Shown: positions 1,870-11,491 of the stretch, piece after piece
How positions within the stretch are numbered: the stretch's first letter is position 1
Layout: every line of letters begins with the position of its first letter
From: an uncultured Modestobacter sp.
GTDB taxonomy: Bacteria; Actinomycetota; Actinomycetes; Mycobacteriales; Geodermatophilaceae
DNA: 64,000 nucleotides
Assembly: GCF_947486615.1 (NCBI RefSeq)
Contig: NZ_CANKUD010000001.1
Location: forward strand, 186,001 to 250,000
Direction: 5' to 3'
Notes under the pieces: model-generated
Seen by the model: the letters and a program-made list of their open reading frames with translations, nothing else
What the model was told of the DNA's origin: nothing
Database searches by the model: none
Program-made: the position numbers and the translations under genes

Positions 1870-1905
1870 CGTCGTCCCTTCGTCATCTCCGGCTCGACAC
1901 CGGAG

Positions 1906-1911
1906 AACCTA
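1906..1911 (-). promoter_or_regulatory. Probable -10 box of kdd
   Basis: On the minus strand these bases read TAGGTT, a good actinobacterial -10 hexamer, 36 nt before the kdd start codon. No convincing -35 box is seen 17 nt further upstream. Confidence 0.4.
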
Positions 1912-1945
1912 GCGTGATGTCGGCCACGAGCCGTAGTTCTTCCCG

Positions 1946-1951
1946 TAGGGT
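1946..1951 (+). promoter_or_regulatory. Probable -10 box of the kamA-like gene
   Basis: TAGGGT on the plus strand, followed by AGGAG at 1983-1987 and a GTG start at 1994. It sits back to back with the kdd promoter in the 124-nt divergent intergenic region. Confidence 0.35.
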
Positions 1952-1993
1952 CGCCGTGTCGAGGCCCGACGTCCCGGTCGCACAGGAGTGCCA

Positions 1994-3358
1994 GTGCTGG
2001 AGCAGCCCTACGAGTACACCGCCCGCGAGCTCGTCGAGCCCGACTGGCGCCGGCTCCCCGGCTTCGCCGGCGTCACCGAGGAGCAGTGGCGCAGCGCGCA
2101 GTGGCAGCGGGTGAACTGCGTGAAGAACGTGCGCCAGCTGCGCGGCGTGTACGGCGACCTGCTCGACGAGGCGTTCTACGCCGACCTCGAGGCCGACCAG
2201 ACCGGCGCCGCGACGATGTCGCTGCTGCTGCCGCCGCAGATGCTCAACACCATGGTGCCCACCGGGCTGCCGACGACCGCCGCCATGCTGGCCGACCCGG
2301 TGCGCCGCTACATGCTCCCGGTCGCCTCCGACCGGCTCGCCGGCGACGACGCGAGCCACCCCCACGCCGCCCGCGACTCGCTGCACGAGCACGAGATGTG
2401 GGCGGTCGAGGGGCTGACCCACCGCTACCCGACCAAGGTGCTGGCCGAGCTGCTGTCGACCTGCCCGCAGTACTGCGGCCACTGCACCCGGATGGACCTG
2501 GTGGGCAACTCGACCCCCGCCGTCCCGAAGCTCAAGTTCGAGCTCAAGCCGGTCGACCGGCAGGGCGCGATGCTGCAGTACCTGCGCGACACCCCCGGCG
2601 TCCGGGACGTCGTCGTCTCCGGCGGCGACGTGGCCAACCTGCCGTTCAAGAACCTGGAGGCGTTCGTCGCCGGGCTGCTGGAGATCGACTCGGTCCGGGA
2701 CATCCGGCTGGCGTCGAAGGCGCTGATGGGCCTGCCGCAGCACTGGCTGCAGGCCGAGGTGCTCGACGGCATGGGCCGGCTGGCCGAGACCGCCCGGGCC
2801 CGCGGCGTCTCGCTCGCTGTGCACACCCACGTCAACGCCGCCCAGTCGGTGACCCCACTGGTGGCCGAGGCAGCCCGGGCCCTGCTGGGCGCCGGGGTGC
2901 GGGACGTGCGCAACCAGGGTGTGCTGCTCGAGGGGGTCAACGCCACCGCCGGCCAGCTGCTGGACCTCTGCTTCGCGCTGCTCGACGGCGCCTCGATCAC
3001 GCCCTACTACTTCTACATGTGCGACATGATCCCCAGCGCCGAGCACTGGCGGGTCTCGCTGTCCACCGCCCAGACGCTGCAGCACGACGTGATGGGCTAC
3101 CTGCCCGGCTTCGCCACCCCGCGGATCGTCTGCGACGTGCCCTACGTCGGCAAGCGCTGGGTGCACCAGGTCGCCGAGTACGACCGTGACCTCGGCATCT
3201 CGTACTGGACGAAGAACTACCGCACCGGCATCGAGCGCACCGACGAGGCGGCGCTGGACCGCCGGCACACCTATTACGACCCGATCCACACCCTCGGGCC
3301 CGAGGGCCGCGCCTGGTGGGCAGCCCACCGTAGTTCCACCCTGACCCCGGTCGGCTGA
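1994..3358 (+). CDS. kamA: KamA-family radical SAM protein (lysine 2,3-aminomutase-like)
   Basis: The product resembles lysine 2,3-aminomutase, which converts L-lysine to L-beta-lysine using a [4Fe-4S] cluster, S-adenosylmethionine and PLP. The cluster motif is visible as STCPQYCGHCTR (CxxxCxxC, about residue 155). The classical PLP-lysine motif PGGGGK is absent; CDVPYVGKRW near residue 395 lies at the expected place and its lysine may do that job. GTG at 1994 is preferred because AGGAG (1983-1987) is six bases upstream; a GTG at 1988 abuts that ribosome site. Divergence from kdd supports a role in lysine to beta-lysine conversion. Substrate may differ from classical KamA. Confidence 0.8.
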   Translation: MLEQPYEYTARELVEPDWRRLPGFAGVTEEQWRSAQWQRVNCVKNVRQLRGVYGDLLDEAFYADLEADQTGAATMSLLLPPQMLNTMVPTGLPTTAAMLADPVRRYMLPVASDRLAGDDASHPHAARDSLHEHEMWAVEGLTHRYPTKVLAELLSTCPQYCGHCTRMDLVGNSTPAVPKLKFELKPVDRQGAMLQYLRDTPGVRDVVVSGGDVANLPFKNLEAFVAGLLEIDSVRDIRLASKALMGLPQHWLQAEVLDGMGRLAETARARGVSLAVHTHVNAAQSVTPLVAEAARALLGAGVRDVRNQGVLLEGVNATAGQLLDLCFALLDGASITPYYFYMCDMIPSAEHWRVSLSTAQTLQHDVMGYLPGFATPRIVCDVPYVGKRWVHQVAEYDRDLGISYWTKNYRTGIERTDEAALDRRHTYYDPIHTLGPEGRAWWAAHRSSTLTPVG

Positions 3359-3363
3359 CGGAG

Positions 3364-3394
3364 GACCCCGCTGCCCGGCCCCGGCAACGGGGTC
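3364..3394 (+). terminator. Possible terminator hairpin after kamA-like gene
   Basis: GACCCCG at 3364-3370 pairs with CGGGGTC at 3388-3394 around a GC-rich loop, six bases after the stop codon. No T tract follows, as is common in actinobacteria. Confidence 0.4.
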
Positions 3395-3439
3395 AGGGGT
3401 GGGGTTTCCGGGGTCGCGGACGGCGGTAGCTCCCTCGGG

Positions 3440-3952
3440 GTGGAACTGCTGTGCACGGACCGGCTGCGGCTGCGCGGCTGGACGACGTCCGGCGCCGACC
3501 TCGCGCGACTGGCCGACCTGTACAGCCGCGACGAGGTGACCCGCTGGCTCGGCGGCGGGCCGACGGTGCCCCCGGCGGAGCTGGTCGAGCGGTGGCGGCT
3601 GGTGCACCAGCTCAACCCGGTGCACGGCTGCTGGGCGATCGACCCACCGGACGGCGGCCTGCCGGCCGGCACGGTGCTGCTGAAGCCGCTGCCGCAGGGG
3701 GTCGGTGAGGTGGAGGTCGGCTGGCACCTGCACCCGGACAGCTGGGGCCGCGGCTACGCCACCGAGGCGGCCCGGGCGGTGGTCGACCGGGCCTTCGACG
3801 CGGGGCTGCTGGAGGTCTACGCCGTCGTCCGGCCGGGCAACGAGGCCTCCCTCGGGGTGTGCCGGAAGCTCGGCATGCAGCCGCTGGGCCGCACCACCCG
3901 CTGGTACGACACCGAGCTGGAGGCCTTCCGGCTCGAGTCGCCGGCGGTCTGA
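3440..3952 (+). CDS. GNAT family N-acetyltransferase (RimJ/RimL type)
   Basis: This 170-residue protein has the LCTDRLRLRGW opening and the WHLHPDSWGRGYATEAARAV segment (residues ~94-113) containing the acetyl-CoA binding Q/RxxGxG/A loop, followed by NEASLGVCRKLGM. Members transfer an acetyl group to amines such as protein N-termini or antibiotics; the acceptor is unknown. The GTG start has no strong ribosome site. The ribosome site of the next gene overlaps this gene's stop, so the two probably share a transcript. Confidence 0.8.
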   Translation: MELLCTDRLRLRGWTTSGADLARLADLYSRDEVTRWLGGGPTVPPAELVERWRLVHQLNPVHGCWAIDPPDGGLPAGTVLLKPLPQGVGEVEVGWHLHPDSWGRGYATEAARAVVDRAFDAGLLEVYAVVRPGNEASLGVCRKLGMQPLGRTTRWYDTELEAFRLESPAV

Positions 3953-3963
3953 GGGAGCGCGCG

Positions 3964-5388
3964 ATGGACTGGTTCGCCGACCCGGGCGCGTGGGAGGGAC
4001 GGCTGGTGCTCACCCGCGGGGTGGCGCTGGTCTACGTGATCGCGTTCGTCGCGGCGCTGCGGCAGGGGCCGGCGCTGCTCGGCTCCGCCGGGCTCACCCC
4101 GGTGCCCCGGTACCTGCAGTGGGCGTCCTGGCGGAAGGCCCCGAGCCTGTTCCACCTGCACTGGTCCGACCGGTTCTTCGCCGGCTGCTGCTGGACCGGC
4201 ATCGCGCTCTCCGTCGCCGCGCTGGTCGGGCTGGCCGACCGGTTGCCGCTGGCCGGCTGGATGGCGCTGTGGCTGGTGCTCTGGGCGCTGTACCTGTCGA
4301 TCGTGAACGTCGGCCAGATCTGGTACGGCTTCGGCTGGGAGTCGCTGCTGCTGGAGGTCGGCTTCCTGGTGGTCTTCCTCGGCCCGGCGCACGTCGCCCC
4401 GCCCACCCTGGGCATGTGGCTGGTGCGCTGGCTGCTGTTCCGGCTGGAGTTCGGCGCCGGGCTGATCAAGATGCGCGGCGACCGGTGCTGGCGAGACCTG
4501 ACCTGCCTGGCCTACCACCACGAGACCCAGCCGATGCCCAACCCGCTGAGCTGGCGGTTCCACCGGCTCAGCCCGCGGCTGCACCGGGTGGAGACGCTGG
4601 CCAACCACGGCACCCAGCTGGTCGTCGTCTTCGGGCTGCTGCTGCCCCAGCCGATCGCCGGGGTCGCCGCCGCCGTCATGGTGGTCACCCAGGGGTACCT
4701 GCTGGTCAGCGGCAACTTCGCCTGGCTGAACGCGCTCACCCTGGTGCTCGGGCTCTCGCTGCTCGACGGCCGCTGGCTGGCCGCGGTGCTCCCCGACCGG
4801 CCGGCCGAGCTCGCCGCGCCGACCTGGCACGCCGTCGTGGTCGTCGTCCTGGCCGTGCTGGTCGCGGTGCTGAGCGTCGCGCCGGTGCGCAACCTGCTGT
4901 CGTCGTCGCAGCGGATGAACTCCAGCTTCGACCCGCTGCGGCTGGTCAACAGCTACGGCGCCTTCGGCTCGGTCACCAAGGTGCGGCGTGAGCTGGTGGT
5001 CGAGGCGACCGACACCCTCGGCCCGGACGCGGGATGGCGGGAGTACGAGTTCCGCGGCAAGCCCGGGGACGTGCACCGCCGCCCGCCGCAGTGGGCGCCC
5101 TACCACCTGCGGCTGGACTGGCTGATGTGGTTCGCCGCCCTCTCCCCCGCCTACGGCCGGTCCTGGCTGGTGCCGTTCCTGGGCAAGCTGCTGGACGCCG
5201 ACCCCGCCACGCTGCGGCTGCTGCGCTCGGCGCCGTTCGGCGCGCAGCGGCCGGCCGCCGTCCGGGTGCTGGTGTACCGCTACCGGTTCACCACCCGGGC
5301 CGAGCGGCGGGAGACCGGCGCGTGGTGGCACCGGACGTACGAGCGTGAGCTGGTGGCCCCGGTGACGGCTGACGACCTGGCGCGCTGA
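3964..5388 (+). CDS. Lipase maturation factor family membrane protein
   Basis: The 474-residue product looks like the lipase maturation factor family (DUF1222, LMF1-like). It has an N-terminal membrane segment, a GLTPVPRYL loop, the APSLFHLHWSDRFF segment, and the conserved stretch around LEFGAGLIKMRGDRCWRDL (residues ~161-180) followed by YHHETQPMPNPLSW. Several hydrophobic helices run to about residue 320, then a soluble tail. In animals LMF1 helps fold lipases in the ER; the bacterial role is unknown. ATG at 3964 is chosen for the GAGGGAG ribosome site at 3951-3957, which overlaps the upstream stop. Confidence 0.8.
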   Translation: MDWFADPGAWEGRLVLTRGVALVYVIAFVAALRQGPALLGSAGLTPVPRYLQWASWRKAPSLFHLHWSDRFFAGCCWTGIALSVAALVGLADRLPLAGWMALWLVLWALYLSIVNVGQIWYGFGWESLLLEVGFLVVFLGPAHVAPPTLGMWLVRWLLFRLEFGAGLIKMRGDRCWRDLTCLAYHHETQPMPNPLSWRFHRLSPRLHRVETLANHGTQLVVVFGLLLPQPIAGVAAAVMVVTQGYLLVSGNFAWLNALTLVLGLSLLDGRWLAAVLPDRPAELAAPTWHAVVVVVLAVLVAVLSVAPVRNLLSSSQRMNSSFDPLRLVNSYGAFGSVTKVRRELVVEATDTLGPDAGWREYEFRGKPGDVHRRPPQWAPYHLRLDWLMWFAALSPAYGRSWLVPFLGKLLDADPATLRLLRSAPFGAQRPAAVRVLVYRYRFTTRAERRETGAWWHRTYERELVAPVTADDLAR

Positions 5389-5394
5389 GGACGG

Positions 5395-6261
5395 TCAGCG
5401 GCGGGCGCGGGCCAGCAGCTGCTTGATCCGGGCCAGCGGGTGCGGCGCCTTGACCTTGGTGCGGTTGCCGGCGGCGTAGTCGGCGTCGATGGCGGCGGCC
5501 TGCTCGGGCGTCGGCGCGCTGCCGCCCAGGTGGGCCGGCTGCCACCAGCGGTCGTCTTCCCCGGCCGGCCGGTCGGGGTAGGTGCGCTGGGCCTCCTCCA
5601 GCAGCTCCACCATCGCCGTCCGGGTGCGGCGGAGCAGCGCCTGCGGCTTCTCCCCCGGCTGCGGAACGAGCGGCTCGCCGATGATCACCGTGACCGGCAC
5701 TCCCCGGCGCAGCACCACCTTGTGGCCCTTGGTGGCGATGCGGTGCCCGCCCCACACGGCCGCGGGCAGGATCGGCACCCCGGCCGCGACGGCCATCCGG
5801 GCGGCGCCGGCCTTGAGGTCCTTGACGGTGAACGAGCTGCTGATGGTCGCCTCGGGGAACACCCCGACCACGTGACCGCCCTCCAGCGCCCGGACGGCGG
5901 CGTCGAACGCGGCCGCGCCGGCCTTGCGGTCGACCGGGATGTGCTGCATGGCCCGCATGAACGGCCCGGCGAACCAGTGCCCGAACACCGACGCCTTCGC
6001 CATGAAGCGCACCAGCCGGTGCTGCGGCAGCGCCGCGAGCCCCAGGTAGGTGAAGTCGAAGAACGAGACGTGGTTGCTGCAGATGATCGCCCCGCCGGTG
6101 GCCGGAACGTGCTCCTGCCCGCGGACGTCGAAGCGGAAGCCGAACAGCCGGAAGACGACCAGGGCCAGCCGGATGATCACGCGATACGGACGGTCACGCG
6201 GATCGGGGCGGGACCCGAACAGGTCGCGGCGGGCGACGTCGCCCCAGCTGGCGGTGTACAT
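5395..6261 (-). CDS. 1-acyl-sn-glycerol-3-phosphate acyltransferase-like protein
   Basis: The 288-residue protein is a lysophospholipid acyltransferase of the PlsC type, acylating a glycerophosphate at the membrane. The catalytic HX4D motif is seen as NHVSFFDF (about residue 70). The glycerol-phosphate binding motif appears as VFPEATIS (about residue 144), with Ala where FPEGT is usual. An amphipathic N-terminal segment RVIIRLALVVFRLFGF could anchor it. It is convergent with the lipase maturation factor gene, with only six bases between the stops, so a shared terminator must lie within coding sequence. Its exact acyl acceptor is not determinable. Confidence 0.85.
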   Translation of the reverse strand: MYTASWGDVARRDLFGSRPDPRDRPYRVIIRLALVVFRLFGFRFDVRGQEHVPATGGAIICSNHVSFFDFTYLGLAALPQHRLVRFMAKASVFGHWFAGPFMRAMQHIPVDRKAGAAAFDAAVRALEGGHVVGVFPEATISSSFTVKDLKAGAARMAVAAGVPILPAAVWGGHRIATKGHKVVLRRGVPVTVIIGEPLVPQPGEKPQALLRRTRTAMVELLEEAQRTYPDRPAGEDDRWWQPAHLGGSAPTPEQAAAIDADYAAGNRTKVKAPHPLARIKQLLARARR

Positions 6262-6311
6262 GGGCGGACCCTAACCAACGGTGCTGAGAGCGACGCTCCG
6301 GTGTCCGTGGC

Positions 6312-7475
6312 TCAGTCGCCGTGGGTCGCTGCCACCGCGGCGCGCACGACCGCGGCCAGGTCACCGGTCTCCCCGGCGACCGCGCGCTGCAGCGTCGCTC
6401 CGCTCCCCCGGCGCGCCAGCTCGGCCAGCCCGGCGGTGACCCGCTCGAGGTCACCGGCGTCGGCCAGCGCAGGCCGGACGTGCTCCACCAGTGCCCGCAC
6501 CACCTGGGGAGCCGGGGCCGGGCGCCCGGTGCGCGGGTCGACCAGGTCACCGGTGAGGCCGGAGCGGCCGGCCCGCCAGCCGGCCACCCGGACCAGCTCG
6601 GCGCGCACCGCCGGCGCCGGCACCCCGGCCCGCCAGTCCCGCGCGGCGGTCTCCACCAGGGCCCGGACCAGGCCGGCCAGCACCACGGCGTCGTCCACCC
6701 GGAGGGCGACGTCGGAGACCCGCACCTCCACCGTCGGCCAGGTCGCCGACAGGCGGGCGTCGAAGTAGACCATCCCCTCGTCCAGGACGGTGCCCGTGCC
6801 GACGAGGTCGTCGACCAGGCGGTGGTAGGCGGCCGGCGTCCCGAAGACGTCGTTCGGCCCGGCGGAGGGCCAGCGGTTCCACACCTGGGAGCGGAAGCTG
6901 GCGTAGCCGGTGTCCCGGCCGTCCCAGAACGGTGAGTTGGCGGTCAGCGCGGTGAGCACCGGGAGCCAGACGCGCACCCGGTCCAGGACGGCGACCCCCT
7001 CCTCGTCGTCGGCGACCGAGACGTGCACGTGGCAGCCGCAGGTGAGCACCTCGGCCGCGGTCAGCCCGAACGCCGCGACCATCTGCTCGTAGCGCCGTCC
7101 GTCGGTGGGGACCGGCTCGACCGGCACCGGCGAGCTGGCCAGGGCCGCGACCCGGGCGCCCAGCGTCGCCGCGGCGGCGTCGGCGCGGGACCGCCAGTGC
7201 CGGAGCTCGGCGGCGACCTCGGCGAGGGTGGTGCAGACCCGGGTGCCCAGCTCGATCTGCTGCTGTTTCAGCTCGGGCACCAGGCGTGGACCCGCGGGCG
7301 CTCCCCCGGCGTCGGTGCCGGGCGCCGTGCCGGACTGCTCGGCCCGGTCATGCTCGGCGACCGTCTCTCCCTCACCTCGCCGCGCGGCGACCTCCAGGGC
7401 CTCGGGGCCCAGCGGTACCGGTACGCCGTCCGGGTCGACGACCAGCAGTTCTTCTTCGACCCCGACGGTGCGCAT
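6312..7475 (-). CDS. Carboxylate-amine ligase, YbdK/GCS2 family
   Basis: The 387-residue protein begins MRTVGVEEELLVVDP, the standard opening of the glutamate-cysteine ligase family 2 (YbdK) fold. It contains CGCHVHVSVAD (about residue 135) and SPFWDGRDTGYASFRSQVW (about residue 170), both conserved. These enzymes ligate the gamma-carboxylate of glutamate to an amine using ATP; since this lineage uses mycothiol, a glutathione role is unlikely and the substrate is open. ATG at 7475 gives the canonical start. No strong Shine-Dalgarno is visible. A 193-nt gap separates it from the divergent gene at 7669. Confidence 0.85.
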   Translation of the reverse strand: MRTVGVEEELLVVDPDGVPVPLGPEALEVAARRGEGETVAEHDRAEQSGTAPGTDAGGAPAGPRLVPELKQQQIELGTRVCTTLAEVAAELRHWRSRADAAAATLGARVAALASSPVPVEPVPTDGRRYEQMVAAFGLTAAEVLTCGCHVHVSVADDEEGVAVLDRVRVWLPVLTALTANSPFWDGRDTGYASFRSQVWNRWPSAGPNDVFGTPAAYHRLVDDLVGTGTVLDEGMVYFDARLSATWPTVEVRVSDVALRVDDAVVLAGLVRALVETAARDWRAGVPAPAVRAELVRVAGWRAGRSGLTGDLVDPRTGRPAPAPQVVRALVEHVRPALADAGDLERVTAGLAELARRGSGATLQRAVAGETGDLAAVVRAAVAATHGD

Positions 7476-7668: not shown

Positions 7669-8514
7669 ATGAGAGGTGAGTGGCAGCCGCCGCTGCCGGA
7701 GATGCCGGCCCCACCGCCGGTCCGTGCCTGGGCGCGGTTGCGGCCGCCCCCGGGTTACGAGCCGCAGTGGCGGCGTCTGGTCGAGGCCGCGCTGGAACAA
7801 GGGCTCGGTCCCGATGCGCTGTCCGAGACCGGCCTCGACCCGTTGGCCGCGGCCCGGGACTGGAAGCCCGCCACCGTCGCTCTGTACAGCAAGGTGGCCC
7901 GGTACGGCGGGCTGGGCGTGGCGCAGCCCCGGACGCCAGAACCCGATCCACCGACGCTGGACCTGCGCGAGCTGACCCGGGTGCGCGGCGAGGCGCCGGA
8001 GCACCTCCGGTCCGTCGCCTGGTGCGCGATCGCCCTGGGCTGGCCAGGGACGGTGGGCCAGTTCCGCGCGCTCCGCCGTGACCAGGTGCACGCCACGACC
8101 CGGCGACTGCTGGTCAGCACCGAGGACGGCGAGTGGTCGGTGCCCGGCGCGCTGACCGCCTGGCACGCCTGGGAGTCGGTGCGCAACCGGTTCCCCGGGC
8201 TCGCCGCGAGTCCCTGGGTGCTGCCAGCGCTGCGCCGCGGCCCTGGCGTCCACTCCCACCTGGGCGGGCAGCTGTCCACCCAGGCCCTGCAGGTGACCTT
8301 CGCCAAGCACGCAGTGCGCACCGCGACCGCGATGCGCGCCATCGCGTCACCCACGCACCGGGCCGCGGTCGAGGAGTTGGCCGCGGACTACCTGACGTTG
8401 TCCTACGACTCCTACCGGCGCCTGGCGCTGGCCGCCGGCGCGCCTCCGGTCGGCCCGAGGGGCGCGGTGCGGGCGCTGCGCAGTGTCGGTCGGGCGGCCC
8501 GGGAGGCCGGCTGA
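7669..8514 (+). CDS. Unknown protein with weak resemblance to a tyrosine recombinase core
   Basis: I do not recognise a named family for this 281-residue protein. The N-terminal third is proline-rich and helical and could be a SAM-like core-binding domain. The segment SVAWCAIALGWPGTVGQFRA followed by LRRDQV (residues ~124-149) resembles the helix around the first catalytic arginine of phage integrases (TGLRxSELxxLRWSDV), but that arginine is missing, and the HxLR, H/W and nucleophilic Tyr boxes cannot be found. A catalytically dead recombinase relative is an inference. It lies immediately left of a repeat-bounded island. ATG at 7669 has no Shine-Dalgarno; ATG at 7699 is an alternative. Confidence 0.6.
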   Translation: MRGEWQPPLPEMPAPPPVRAWARLRPPPGYEPQWRRLVEAALEQGLGPDALSETGLDPLAAARDWKPATVALYSKVARYGGLGVAQPRTPEPDPPTLDLRELTRVRGEAPEHLRSVAWCAIALGWPGTVGQFRALRRDQVHATTRRLLVSTEDGEWSVPGALTAWHAWESVRNRFPGLAASPWVLPALRRGPGVHSHLGGQLSTQALQVTFAKHAVRTATAMRAIASPTHRAAVEELAADYLTLSYDSYRRLALAAGAPPVGPRGAVRALRSVGRAAREAG

Positions 8515-8534
8515 GCCCGGTCAGTGCCGAGCCC

Positions 8535-8554
8535 GGTCAGCGCTGGGGCGGGTC
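8535..8554. repeat. 20-bp direct repeat, left copy
   Basis: GGTCAGCGCTGGGGCGGGTC matches 10260-10279 at 19 of 20 positions in the same orientation. It lies nine bases outside the left inverted repeat. The GGTCAGCGCTGGGG core also recurs at 10276, and GGTCAGCGCTGGG occurs at the tatC stop (18080). Confidence 0.6.
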
Positions 8555-8563
8555 CGGGTGTGG

Positions 8564-8580
8564 GGAGGATCGGAACGGTT
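8564..8580. repeat. 17-bp inverted repeat, left arm
   Basis: GGAGGATCGGAACGGTT is the exact reverse complement of 10233-10249. No 5-bp target duplication is visible directly outside the two arms. Confidence 0.75.
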
Positions 8581-8584
8581 TCTT

Positions 8585-8737
8585 CCCGTCACGGACGAGA
8601 TGATCGCCCGCCTGTCGTCCCTGCAGTTCGAGCACATCAACTTCCTCGACAGGTACGCCTTCACGCAACCCGACATCACCACCCTGCGATCACTTCGCGA
8701 GCCGGACACCTCCGCTGCCGGCCCGGGACCTTGGTGA
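8585..8737 (+). pseudogene. C-terminal remnant of a Tn3-family transposase
   Basis: The translated stretch PVTDEMIARLSSLQFEHINF continues LDRYAFTQPD and matches, from memory, the end of Tn3-family transposases (ARLSPLxxEHINFLGRYAF). Only about 35-45 residues are recognisable before a stop at 8735-8737. The similarity begins just inside the left inverted-repeat arm, so the rest of the gene was lost there. It is a relic, not a functional gene. Confidence 0.55.
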
Positions 8738-8804
8738 CCTTCGGTCCTGATCGCCATGCGGCCTGCCCACGTCTGTTTTGGCTGGGCCGTGACGGTCCTC
8801 ACCC

Positions 8805-8833
8805 TTGCTCCTCGGCGGCCTCCCGGTTAGGTT
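8805..8833 (+). promoter_or_regulatory. Promoter of the SnoaL-like gene
   Basis: TTGCTC at 8805-8810 and TAGGTT at 8828-8833 are separated by 17 nt, an excellent vegetative actinobacterial promoter. The predicted transcription start is near 8840. Confidence 0.65.
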
Positions 8834-8855
8834 TGTTATTGTCCAATCACTAACC
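8825..8855. promoter_or_regulatory. Candidate TetR operator
   Basis: GGTTAG (8825-8830) and CTAACC (8850-8855) form an inverted repeat that overlaps the -10 box and start site; inside lies a second small palindrome, ATTGTCCAAT at 8838-8847. The position suits repression by the TetR protein encoded 600 bases downstream. Binding is inferred, and the centres of the two palindromes differ by about 2 nt. Confidence 0.45.
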
Positions 8856-8866
8856 AAGGAGCCACC

Positions 8867-9334
8867 ATGAACGCCAAGCCGGCCCGCGAACTCACCCCCG
8901 CACAGCACGCCCTGGCAGAGCACCTGCGGCTGGTGTCCTCCGGCCAGATCGACGAGTGGATCAAGCTGTACGCCGCGGACGGCACGGTCGAGTTCCCCTT
9001 CGCTCCCGCCGGTGTGCCTACCCGGGTACAGGGACGCGAGGCGCTGATCGCCCACATGCGCGGCTTCCCGCAGACCTTCGATGTGAAGTTCATCGACGTG
9101 AAGTTCATCGAGACGACCGACCCCCGCACCGCGGTCGCCGAATACCGTTCGGAGGGAAGCGTCCTCAGCACCGGCAAGCCTTATGAGCAGACGGTCATCA
9201 CGGTGATCCGCCTCGACGAGGCGGGCCTGGTCGAGCGGTTCGTCGACTACTGGAACCCTCTCGTGGTCATCGAGGCCATGACCCCCGACCAGGCGGCCAG
9301 TGGCCAAGACGTGTCGTGGCCCGCAGGGCGCTGA
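8867..9334 (+). CDS. SnoaL-like / nuclear transport factor 2-fold protein
   Basis: The 155-residue protein has an SnoaL/NTF2-like pattern: an N-terminal helix, DEWIKLYAADGTVEFPFAP (about residues 26-44), a REALIAHMRG helix, and a C-terminal FVDYWNPLVV strand. Members are small cone-shaped dimers acting as polyketide cyclases, isomerases or ketosteroid-like enzymes; no specific reaction can be assigned. A short internal repeat, VKFIDVKFI, is present. Start is fixed by AAGGAG at 8856-8861, five bases before the ATG. It has its own strong promoter and putative operator and is followed by the TetR gene, suggesting an inducible small-molecule function. Confidence 0.8.
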   Translation: MNAKPARELTPAQHALAEHLRLVSSGQIDEWIKLYAADGTVEFPFAPAGVPTRVQGREALIAHMRGFPQTFDVKFIDVKFIETTDPRTAVAEYRSEGSVLSTGKPYEQTVITVIRLDEAGLVERFVDYWNPLVVIEAMTPDQAASGQDVSWPAGR

Positions 9335-9355
9335 TCCCGATTCGACAGGGTGAGA

Positions 9356-9390
9356 GGGGGCAAGACGGGTCGCCCACCCGTCTTGCCCCC
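9356..9390 (+). terminator. Long perfect hairpin between SnoaL-like and tetR genes
   Basis: GGGGGCAAGACGGGT (9356-9370) pairs perfectly with 9376-9390 around a 5-nt loop; an outer helix can form between GGGTGAGA (9348-9355) and TCTCACCC (9402-9409). No T tract follows. It may terminate the upstream message or attenuate the TetR gene that begins at 9431. Confidence 0.6.
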
Positions 9391-9430
9391 CTCGAACCCC
9401 GTCTCACCCCGCAGTGAAAAACTGGCAGAC

Positions 9431-10039
9431 ATGCCCGCCCCCGGCTCCAGCGTGAAAAGCGATCAACGCCGTCGAGTCGTACTGGACGCGGCCGTGGCCT
9501 GTTTTGCGCGCAAGGGTTACTACGGCACGACAACCAGTGAGATCGCCAAACGGGCCGGAATCTCTCAGCCCTACGTCTACCGCCTCTTCGCCAGTAAGGA
9601 GGCTCTGTTCGCCGGTGCCGTCCTCCACGTGTCCGAGCTGCTCTCGGATGCTCTGACCGGAGCCGGCGCCGGCGCCGGCACAGATGAGGCCGGGCCGCCC
9701 CGGCAGGCGGAGGGGGTGATGCGTGCGATCCGGTCCGCCTACAGCACCCTGATCCAGGACCGGGACGTCATGCGGTTCCTCATGCAGGCCAGTTGTGCAG
9801 CTGATGAGCCGCTCGTGGCCGAGGCGGTGCGCACGTGCTATGCCCGGCAGGTCGAACTCGTCAGTGAGCTCCTGAACCACGACGACGCTGCGGTCCGGCA
9901 CTGGTTCGGCGCCGGCATGCTCGAAAATGTCACGCTGACCCTCGGCCTGGCCGACGTCGACGAGCCCTGGGCACGGACCCTCAGCGGGCAACGGTCTCGA
10001 TCGGACAGCGGCAACTTCACCCACCAGGCTTCGCCCTAG
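9431..10039 (+). CDS. TetR/AcrR family transcriptional regulator
   Basis: The 202-residue protein has a classic TetR helix-turn-helix, with VVLDAAVACFARKGYYGTTT followed by SEIAKRAGISQPYVYRLFAS (residues ~15-54), and a variable ligand-binding C-terminal domain. It probably represses the SnoaL-like gene and perhaps itself through the palindrome at 8825-8855. ATG at 9431 is chosen because upstream in-frame sequence lies within the hairpin; the ribosome site is weak. The region after it to 10293 holds no convincing gene, only a hairpin and the right inverted-repeat arm. Confidence 0.85.
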   Translation: MPAPGSSVKSDQRRRVVLDAAVACFARKGYYGTTTSEIAKRAGISQPYVYRLFASKEALFAGAVLHVSELLSDALTGAGAGAGTDEAGPPRQAEGVMRAIRSAYSTLIQDRDVMRFLMQASCAADEPLVAEAVRTCYARQVELVSELLNHDDAAVRHWFGAGMLENVTLTLGLADVDEPWARTLSGQRSRSDSGNFTHQASP

Positions 10040-10185
10040 CTTCTACCGCAAGGGCGGGATATGCAGCCGACCTGCTCTGCCGACACCTGCCACCACGCCC
10101 CGCGGCCCAGGTCACCGCCGCCGAGCATGAACTGCACGCGCCTCCGACGACCGAGGCATGGCCAGAACCAGCGCTGTGAACACTT

Positions 10186-10220
10186 CATCTCTGCTGGGGG
10201 CTTCGCCGTCAGCAGAGATG
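10186..10220. repeat. 11-bp stem hairpin near the right end of the island
   Basis: CATCTCTGCTG (10186-10196) is the exact complement of CAGCAGAGATG (10210-10220) with a 13-nt loop that can itself pair (GGC-TTC-GCC). It sits 13 bases inside the right inverted-repeat arm in a gene-free stretch. No T run follows. Confidence 0.6.
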
Positions 10221-10232
10221 GCTACCGCCAAG

Positions 10233-10249
10233 AACCGTTCCGATCCTCC
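10233..10249. repeat. 17-bp inverted repeat, right arm
   Basis: AACCGTTCCGATCCTCC is the exact reverse complement of 8564-8580. Confidence 0.75.
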
Positions 10250-10259
10250 TCGGACCCCG

Positions 10260-10279
10260 GGTCAGCGCTGGGGTGGGTC
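10260..10279. repeat. 20-bp direct repeat, right copy, part of a 16-bp tandem repeat
   Basis: GGTCAGCGCTGGGGTGGGTC matches 8535-8554 with one difference. The unit GGTCAGCGCTGGGG repeats at 10276-10289 and a broken third copy starts at 10292, overlapping the stop codon of the radical SAM gene. Confidence 0.6.
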
Positions 10280-10293
10280 AGCGCTGGGGCCGG

Positions 10294-11397
10294 TCAGCAC
10301 AACGCCAGCTGCTCCGGCTCCTCGGCCGCGACGGCCCGGTCGGGCAGTCGGCCGGGCAGGCTGCCGGCCGGGAAGCCGGCCGACTCGTCGCCAGGCAGGC
10401 CGAGGCTGCTGCCGGTGCCGTCCACGCCGCGCGCCACTCCCCCGCTCTGCCGGTCCAGCCCGTGCCGTACCAGCACGGGGGCCACACGGGCGGCCAGCCA
10501 GCTGCGGTACTCCGCCGGCACGTACGCGCCCCGCCCGTACAGCTGGCGGTACCGGCCGACCAGCCCGGGGTGCTCCCGTGCCAGCCATGCGGTGAACCAC
10601 TCGCGGGCTCCGGGGCGCAGGTGCAGGGGCAGCACGGTCACCCCGGTGGCGCCGGCCGCGGCGATCGCGCCGATCGCGGCCTCCAGGTGCTCCCGGGTGT
10701 CGGTGAGCCCGGGCAGCACCGGGGCCAGGAACACCCCGCACGGCAGCCCGGCGTCGGTGATCGCCCTGACCAGGTCCAGCCGGGCGCGCGGTGTCGGCAC
10801 CCCGGGCTCCAGCGCGGTGTGCAGGTCGTCGTCCCAGATGGCCATCGACACCCCCATGCCGATCGGCACGTCCCGGGCGGCCGCGACCAGCCGGGGCACG
10901 TCACGGCGGGCCAGTGTGCCCTTGGTGAGGATCGAGAAGGGCGTGCCCGAGCGGGCCAGTGCGTCGATGACCCCGGGCATCAGCCGGTAGCGGCCCTCGG
11001 CCCGCTGGTAGGGGTCGGTGTTGGTGCCCAGCGCGACGTGCGCCCGCTGCCAGGACGGGCGGGCCAGCTCCCGGCGCAGCACGTCGACGAGGTTGGTCTT
11101 GACCACGATCTGTTGGTCGAAGTCGGCCCCGCTGTCCAGCTCCAGCCACTCGTGCGTCCCCCTCGAGTAGCAGTAGACACACGCATGGGAGCAGCCGCGG
11201 TAGGGGTTGATCGTGTGGCCGAAGGGCATCGCCGACCCCTTCGGCACGGCGTTGAGCGCGCTCTTGGCCCGCACCTCGTGGAACGTCAGCCCGGGGAACT
11301 CCGGCACCTGGACGGTACGCAGCAGGCCGCGGACGTCGGGCAGCCCGGGCAGGGCGCTCGGTTCGTCGAAGTCCAGCCGCTGGGCGTCCCATCGCAT
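10294..11397 (-). CDS. Rv2578c-family radical SAM protein
   Basis: The 367-residue protein has the radical SAM cluster motif in YRGCSHACVYCYSRGTHEW (CxxxCxxC, about residue 62) and the SALNAVP, ALGTNTDPYQ and PIGMGVSMAIWD segments of the Rv2578c group, related to spore photoproduct lyase-like SplB proteins. The reaction is unknown; a nucleic-acid repair role is inferred from its control. ATG at 11397 gives the family start MRWDAQ. A perfect mycobacterial-type SOS box ends ten bases upstream, and Rv2578c itself is, as I recall, in the LexA regulon. Its 3' end carries a 16-bp tandem repeat that may have altered the C-terminus. Confidence 0.8.
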   Translation of the reverse strand: MRWDAQRLDFDEPSALPGLPDVRGLLRTVQVPEFPGLTFHEVRAKSALNAVPKGSAMPFGHTINPYRGCSHACVYCYSRGTHEWLELDSGADFDQQIVVKTNLVDVLRRELARPSWQRAHVALGTNTDPYQRAEGRYRLMPGVIDALARSGTPFSILTKGTLARRDVPRLVAAARDVPIGMGVSMAIWDDDLHTALEPGVPTPRARLDLVRAITDAGLPCGVFLAPVLPGLTDTREHLEAAIGAIAAAGATGVTVLPLHLRPGAREWFTAWLAREHPGLVGRYRQLYGRGAYVPAEYRSWLAARVAPVLVRHGLDRQSGGVARGVDGTGSSLGLPGDESAGFPAGSLPGRLPDRAVAAEEPEQLALC

Positions 11398-11406
11398 GGC
11401 GCCATC

Positions 11407-11420
11407 CGAACACATGTTCG
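11407..11420. promoter_or_regulatory. LexA (SOS) box
   Basis: CGAACACATGTTCG fits the actinobacterial LexA consensus CGAAC-N4-GTTCG perfectly and lies ten bases before the radical SAM start codon. LexA binding here would block transcription until DNA damage. Confidence 0.8.
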
Positions 11421-11491
11421 ACGTGCTGTCGACCAGCGGCGCCCCGGCCCGGGCCACGTCTTGCCGAACGGTGGTGGGCCACCGTGACCGC

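Follow-up and report, generated by a model that had tools for sequence, protein, structure and literature searches.

A probable deletion derivative of a Tn3-family transposon carries a SnoaL-like gene and a TetR-type regulator gene in an uncultured Modestobacter

The locus described here lies in a stretch of 64,000 nucleotides from an uncultured Modestobacter sp. (contig NZ_CANKUD010000001.1), which was analysed as a whole and is called the window below. Two host genes enclose a short segment with a SnoaL-like (NTF2-fold) gene and a TetR-type regulator gene, and these two are in turn flanked by remnants of transposition genes and by repeats (Table 1). A first-pass annotation of the letters alone had reported a segment of about 1.7 kb bounded by a perfect 17-bp inverted repeat (8564-8580 / 10233-10249) nested inside a 20-bp direct repeat that agrees at 19 of 20 positions (8535-8554 / 10260-10279), and had cautioned that the right direct repeat is part of a local 16-bp tandem repeat. 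Both repeats and the tandem repeat were found as described, and profile searches recovered the SnoaL-like and TetR genes that it had placed inside the segment. The G+C content of the element delimited below is 66.2%, as against 73.7% for the window, and a search of positions 8400-10400 for Rfam families returned none. With respect to the right-hand neighbour, a homologue of the radical SAM gene is matched in two pieces in 12 of the 22 other genomes of the genus, with the pieces lying about 0.5-1.1 kb apart at residues 95-103. This is the pattern expected of an intein, and NCBIfam has an intein-containing Rv2578c model; the window copy (10294-11457) is without such an insert.

Table 1. Features of the element and its surroundings (positions are those of the window; IR, inverted repeat).
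Feature	Position	Strand	Remarks
Left host neighbour, 281-aa gene	7669..8514	+	no Pfam or NCBIfam family
Host 16-bp tandem repeat, left part	8516..8554	.	split by the insertion; period restored on joining the flanks
Left target duplication, GGGTC	8550..8554	.	5 bp
Left IR	8555..8581	+	27 bp left of 37; 27/27 identical to the Blastococcus element, which keeps 37 bp; one-base uncertainty at outer end
tnpA tail (Tn3 transposase)	8582..8737	+	stop at 8735-8737; 92% identical over 49 aa to the Blastococcus fragment, itself matching PF01526 to the last position
Passenger block	8759..10051	+	89-91% identical in genomes without the transposon: 6/341 of another family, all one genus
Imperfect palindrome, putative TetR operator	8830..8855	.	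26 bp, 10/13 pairs
SnoaL-like (NTF2-fold) gene, 155 aa	8867..9334	+	PF12680, E 3.4e-13
TetR-type regulator gene, 202 aa	9431..10039	+	PF00440, E 2.3e-17; ATG at 9431 (open frame from GTG 9350); same start open in the other copies
tnpR tail (serine resolvase)	10075..10160	+	stop codon changed; right limit approximate; aligned with the Blastococcus element
Hairpin, 11-bp perfect arms	10186..10220	.	just inside the right IR; 13-bp loop; also in the Blastococcus element
Right IR	10222..10258	-	37 bp; 36/37 to an end consensus built from these same elements
Right target duplication, GGGTC	10259..10263	.	5 bp
Host 16-bp tandem repeat, right part	10259..10298	.	split by the insertion; period restored on joining the flanks
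Right host neighbour, Rv2578c-type radical SAM gene	10294..11457	-	NF038135, 518 bits vs cut-off 430

The 17-bp inverted repeat extends outward to agreement at 22 of 26 positions. Taken alone, however, such a pair is weak evidence, because three perfect 17-bp inverted pairs with a spacing of 100-3000 bp are found in the 64-kb window and 30 first-order Markov versions of the window yielded 13 of them in all, spread over six versions. The earlier statement that the symmetry is hard to get by chance was thus too strong for the inverted repeat, and the reality of the feature was instead established by genome comparison. In 19 of the 22 other genomes of the genus (those that could be read at this locus), the two host neighbours are adjacent and the site is empty, which is the arrangement that had been proposed for inspection between the genes at 8514 and 10294; the segment is therefore not common to all orthologous loci. 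The gap between the ends of the two neighbour alignments is 7-67 bp in these 19 genomes and 1785 bp in the window, although in some of the 19 the alignment stops short of the end of the upstream gene and one (G022) matches only part of the radical SAM gene. The remaining three genomes were left out of the count for lack of one neighbour: in two (G012 and G016) the upstream gene was not found in the stretch, and in one (G019) there was no radical SAM match. The host 16-bp tandem repeat probably arose locally, as it was not seen between these genes in the readable genomes of the genus.

The tandem repeat made it possible to place the ends of the insertion. When positions 8555-10258 are removed and one GGGTC is kept, the host repeat continues across the junction with 32 of 36 period-16 matches, while other assumed duplication lengths between 0 and 15 bp give only 19-24 of 36. 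Since a duplication of 5 bp alone restores the period, the element was taken to be 1704 bp long with the duplication at 8550-8554 and 10259-10263. The period being 16 bp, we estimate the prior chance of obtaining the 5-bp outcome by luck at about 1 in 16. The 20-bp direct repeats had been read as part of the boundary; they are really units of the host tandem repeat, split by the insertion and including the 5-bp duplication, and the true ends lie at 8555 and 10258. One discrepancy concerns the left end, where the window duplication is exact if the element begins at 8555, whereas that of a related element in Blastococcus (see below) is exact only with the end one base further in (its duplication is AACCC if the left end begins GGGTG). 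The left IR of the window copy is cut after 27 bp by the deletion that removed tnpA. The hairpin just inside the right IR could be a terminator or a binding site.

A search with the 17-mer allowing at most one mismatch found it in 2 of 112 genomes of the family, in each case as one inward-facing pair. Besides the window's own genome, the pair occurs in Blastococcus xanthinilyticus DSM 46842 (NZ_VNHW01000003.1), so that the ends do recur at another locus, which the first-pass annotation had made a test of its proposal. The Blastococcus element measures 2952 bp, and it is 96.6% identical to the window element over 1494 bp and 93.4% over 211 bp, with two further stretches that are missing from the window copy. 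The first contains part of a Tn3 transposase fragment (177 aa searched; PF01526 positions 239-389 of 389, E 4.8e-44; NF033527 profile positions 801-954 of 954), and the second contains most of a serine resolvase (PF00239, E 9.3e-18; HTH_7 / PF02796), the first part of which is in another frame. The Blastococcus copy is broken too, judging from its sequence, since its transposase is only a fragment and its resolvase begins out of frame. Both of its ends are 37 bp long and agree with each other at 32 of 37 positions. It was this longer fragment that identified the Tn3-family transposase tail of the window, by the identity given in Table 1. The 47-aa tail is too short by itself to match any Pfam family, and a tblastn search of plasmids with a 49-aa stretch of it returned nothing; the Blastococcus fragment was therefore used as the query, and 74 of 394 genomes of the class matched it. 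An empty site for the Blastococcus insertion was also sought in 22 other Blastococcus genomes, using about 1.5 kb of flank, and the left neighbour gene was never found beside the right neighbour gene.

In a species-level genome collection the exact 17-mer is present in 18 stretches. The passenger pair accompanies it in three of them, from Blastococcus, Umezawaea beigongshangensis and Lentzea jiangxiensis; in the remaining 15 the bases around the 17-mer are unrelated, and these were set aside as chance occurrences. Umezawaea and Lentzea each retain one end matching at 25 or more of 37 positions (8-kb stretches examined). Umezawaea has lost its left end and nearly all of tnpA, and its resolvase gene is split by an insert carrying pieces of an IS4/5-type transposase; Lentzea has only an internal piece of tnpA. 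The breakage of tnpA thus differs among all four copies.

More complete relatives are found on Streptomyces plasmids. The Tn3 transposons of S. tendae (NZ_CP043961.1) and Streptomyces sp. NBC_00690 (NZ_CP109010.1) share the order IR - tnpA - passenger - recombinase - IR with the elements described here, and the C-terminal part of their tnpA products is 72-74% identical to the Blastococcus fragment. Their 37-bp ends match at 26-30 of 37 positions: 26 at each end in S. tendae (19-25 in five shuffles), and 30 and 26 in NBC_00690 (20-22 in shuffles). In all, seven stretches with relatives of the Tn3 transposase were scanned for such ends; an inward pair was detected in two (L183 and L185), one end in two (L184 and L186), two matches on the same strand in one (L187), and none above the shuffles in the remaining two (L082 and L188). 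The Streptomyces elements have a long tnpA and a recombinase gene, whereas only small parts of tnpA and tnpR survive in the window copy, and the passengers differ, being peptide deformylase and winged-helix genes in one case and an IPT/TIG protein in the other. The S. tendae plasmid element, at 1883-7315 of stretch L183, carries its peptide deformylase gene between the similar 37-bp ends. Because these plasmid relatives share the gene order and have similar ends, the comparison suggests that there is an actinobacterial Tn3 lineage whose passengers are taken up in the interval from tnpA to tnpR.

Tn3-family elements, as characterized in a published account (PMC7157771), are bounded by IRs of at least 38-40 bp, encode a resolvase and a TnpA of about 1000 aa, and carry diverse passengers. 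The present element has related IRs close to this length, with 37-bp ends in Blastococcus and a complete right IR and a 27-bp left IR in the window. It is also flanked on both sides by the 5-bp duplication GGGTC, with the one-base uncertainty relative to Blastococcus. On the other hand, only a tail remains in the window of the DDE transposase of about 1000 aa, and only the resolvase tail of the resolvase gene and res site. The element is thus a Tn3 member by descent and not a working transposon. Derivatives that lack transposition genes are known as well, namely the minimal insertion cassettes (MICs) of Xanthomonas (PMC7157771) and the TIMEs and their composites, TIME-COMPs (PMC4133298 and PMC13367494). 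Like the MICs, the window element is Tn3-derived and keeps a passenger while the transposition genes are missing: two passengers lie between Tn3 IRs, accompanied only by gene tails. It differs from the MICs in retaining the tnpA and tnpR tails and in having one truncated IR. Its structure resembles that of a MIC, and its descent is from a Tn3-family transposon. With the TIMEs and TIME-COMPs, as those papers present them, it shares Tn3-related IRs, 5-bp duplications and a non-autonomous state. However, TIME1-4 are given there as 262 bp and the composites as bounded by two TIMEs, whereas the window holds a single shrunken unit transposon with two genes. At 1704 bp and with two open genes, it also falls outside the TIME/MITE range of about 50-500 bp of geneless DNA between IRs.

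From these comparisons we conclude with considerable confidence that window positions 8555-10258 derive by deletion from a Tn3-family transposon that had landed between two host genes. The ancestor would have been a paste-and-copy transposon with the order IR - tnpA - [SnoaL-like + TetR passenger pair] - res region - tnpR - IR. The insertion took place within the host 16-bp tandem repeat between the two genes and generated the 5-bp target duplication seen there. Internal deletions would account for the loss, itself evident from the alignment, of tnpA up to its tail together with the inner 10 bp of the left IR, and of tnpR up to its tail. We infer that both deletions postdate the insertion, because the left IR lacks its inner 10 bp when the recognition sequence studied for Tn4430 is 38 bp (PMC9579193), and because the deletions differ from copy to copy. 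The alternative is that the element is a non-autonomous cassette (MIC-like or a TIME derivative) and moved to this site already in its 1.7-kb form, using in trans the transposase of a different Tn3-family element. Elements of this kind are described in two papers (PMC7157771 and PMC4133298), both ends and the 5-bp duplication are present, and related transposases exist in the class, as the tnpA-fragment matches demonstrate. Nevertheless, we regard this alternative as unlikely, given the shortened left IR set against the 38 bp of Tn4430, the independent decay of the other three copies, and two properties of the window's own genome. First, the 17-mer occurs there as a single pair only, i.e. the element is single-copy. 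Second, a PF01526 search of this 36-contig draft detected no Tn3 transposase domain; the same search was positive in 2 of 14 control genomes and is blind to remnants as short as the tnpA tail, which it missed. When the Blastococcus tnpA fragment was used as the query, the tail was the only match in the genome. Having arrived as a mobile-element insertion, in keeping with the mobility first proposed for it, the derivative is now probably immobile and fixed in place, since the search of the genome yielded no Tn3 transposase domain and the left IR is incomplete.

The passenger block also occurs outside Tn3 remains, in the six genomes of another genus listed in Table 1; five more of the 341 genomes match it at 68-70% (DNA). 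In an even sample of 394 genomes of the class, four match the block, including the window's and Blastococcus. The similarity of the six copies begins 22 bp past the tnpA stop in five and 29 bp past it in the sixth, and it ends, in coordinates of the Blastococcus element, at 2187-2190 in five and at 2084 in the sixth, just before the resolvase gene. The right limit of the block is where the res site would be expected. The tnpA tail was absent from the six copies, and nothing resembling an element end was conspicuous in them. Short repeated stretches aside, their surroundings match one another only within about 1.3-1.7 kb around the block (one contig is just 3.2 kb long). About 0.45 kb upstream of one copy lies a transposase-like gene with an rve domain. 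As neither the tnpA tail nor a conspicuous end was found in the six copies and their surroundings mostly fail to match, the block has probably moved by other means as well. A repeated stretch of 250-283 bp lies beside several of the six copies, and the pair may be mobile there by another route. Phage records did not contain the block, a search of viral contigs gave no relative of the SnoaL-like protein, and the best plasmid matches were below 60% at the protein level (47 records) and of 29% coverage at 67% at the DNA level.

The six copies raise the possibility that the passenger block is a mobile unit in its own right, to which the Tn3 remains are incidental. Their separation from these ends and the tnpA tail, their largely dissimilar surroundings and the transposase-like gene near one of them would all fit such a unit. 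Common ends for the six were not identified, however, and in the window, Blastococcus, Umezawaea and Lentzea the block lies within Tn3 remains; the Tn3 element is therefore the vehicle for these four, and we consider an independent unit very improbable as an account of the locus. A broader proposal is that the SnoaL-TetR pair is a selectable, ligand-controlled trait spreading through the Actinomycetes by way of at least two kinds of mobile DNA, with hosts repeatedly dropping the transposase and keeping the pair and with the 1.7-kb form still movable in trans; this we think doubtful and put forward as speculation. The idea that chance repeats or an assembly artefact surround ordinary chromosomal genes is refuted, even though a perfect 17-bp inverted pair is no great rarity in this DNA, by the empty sites in the 19 relatives and by the same ends flanking the same genes in another genus (Blastococcus). 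The segment had been put forward as a possible undescribed small mobile element, and part of this holds: it is a repeat-bounded mobile insertion, and in a literature search confined to open-licence full texts no description of it was found. The queries returned no paper combining Geodermatophilaceae, transposon and Tn3, none combining SnoaL, Tn3-family transposon and TetR, and none combining Tn3-derived, MITE, Streptomyces and passenger. It is, however, a shrunken transposon rather than a distinct small element, and thus a new, decayed member of the Tn3 family and not a new kind of element.

Both passenger genes are open in all four copies, with the Umezawaea SnoaL-like gene starting at GTG. 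The SnoaL-like proteins of the other three copies (155 aa) are 96.8-97.4% identical to that of the window, and the TetR proteins (196-202 aa across the copies) are 96.0-97.0% identical. Values of dN/dS (NG86) ranged from 0.07 to 0.34 in 20 comparisons covering five sequences and two genes, with few substitutions per pair, and these few substitutions show a pattern of purifying selection on the passenger pair. Within the block, a 15-bp perfect hairpin lies between the two genes at 9356-9390, which Blastococcus keeps with one change and Lentzea has lost, and a 15-bp tandem duplication at 9078-9107 within the SnoaL-like gene, also present in Blastococcus, produces a repeated DVKFI motif.

Upstream of the SnoaL-like gene lies an imperfect palindrome whose 24-bp core has the same pattern in all 10 copies compared. 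Sites with up to three mismatches occur once per genome in each of five genomes scanned, and a reversed control gave none. This degree of symmetry is reached by 23 of 2000 shuffles of the 129-bp stretch that precedes the gene; when the whole element is shuffled, 10 pairs come up in 81 of 200 cases, and the palindrome was accordingly not considered striking on that scale. Because of its position (8830-8855), its conserved core and its single occurrence per genome, the most likely arrangement is that the TetR protein would repress the SnoaL-like gene through this putative operator. Release would then most likely be brought about by a small molecule serving as ligand or substrate of the NTF2-fold protein. 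In terms of sequence, the nearest solved relatives of the SnoaL-like protein are PA3332 (1z1s), designed digoxigenin binders and YesE, with ketosteroid isomerases further off, and the protein likely binds or turns over a small molecule. An assignment as a ketosteroid isomerase was not accepted, as the NCBIfam score is 30 bits against a cut-off of 97 and the isomerases are distant among the solved structures. The one PADLOC hit was weak and partial and fell on the TetR protein (E 0.00086); we do not believe it.

For annotation, the locus provides a worked example in which the exact ends of a decayed transposon were recovered with the help of a split host tandem repeat and empty sites. For the biology of these bacteria, it reveals that an actinobacterial Tn3 lineage carries an uncommon passenger, an NTF2-fold protein accompanied by a TetR-type regulator of its own, which outlives the transposon genes in four genomes. 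That the passenger pair has been kept repeatedly is the aspect that deserves to be pursued, and what benefit the pair may bring becomes a testable question.
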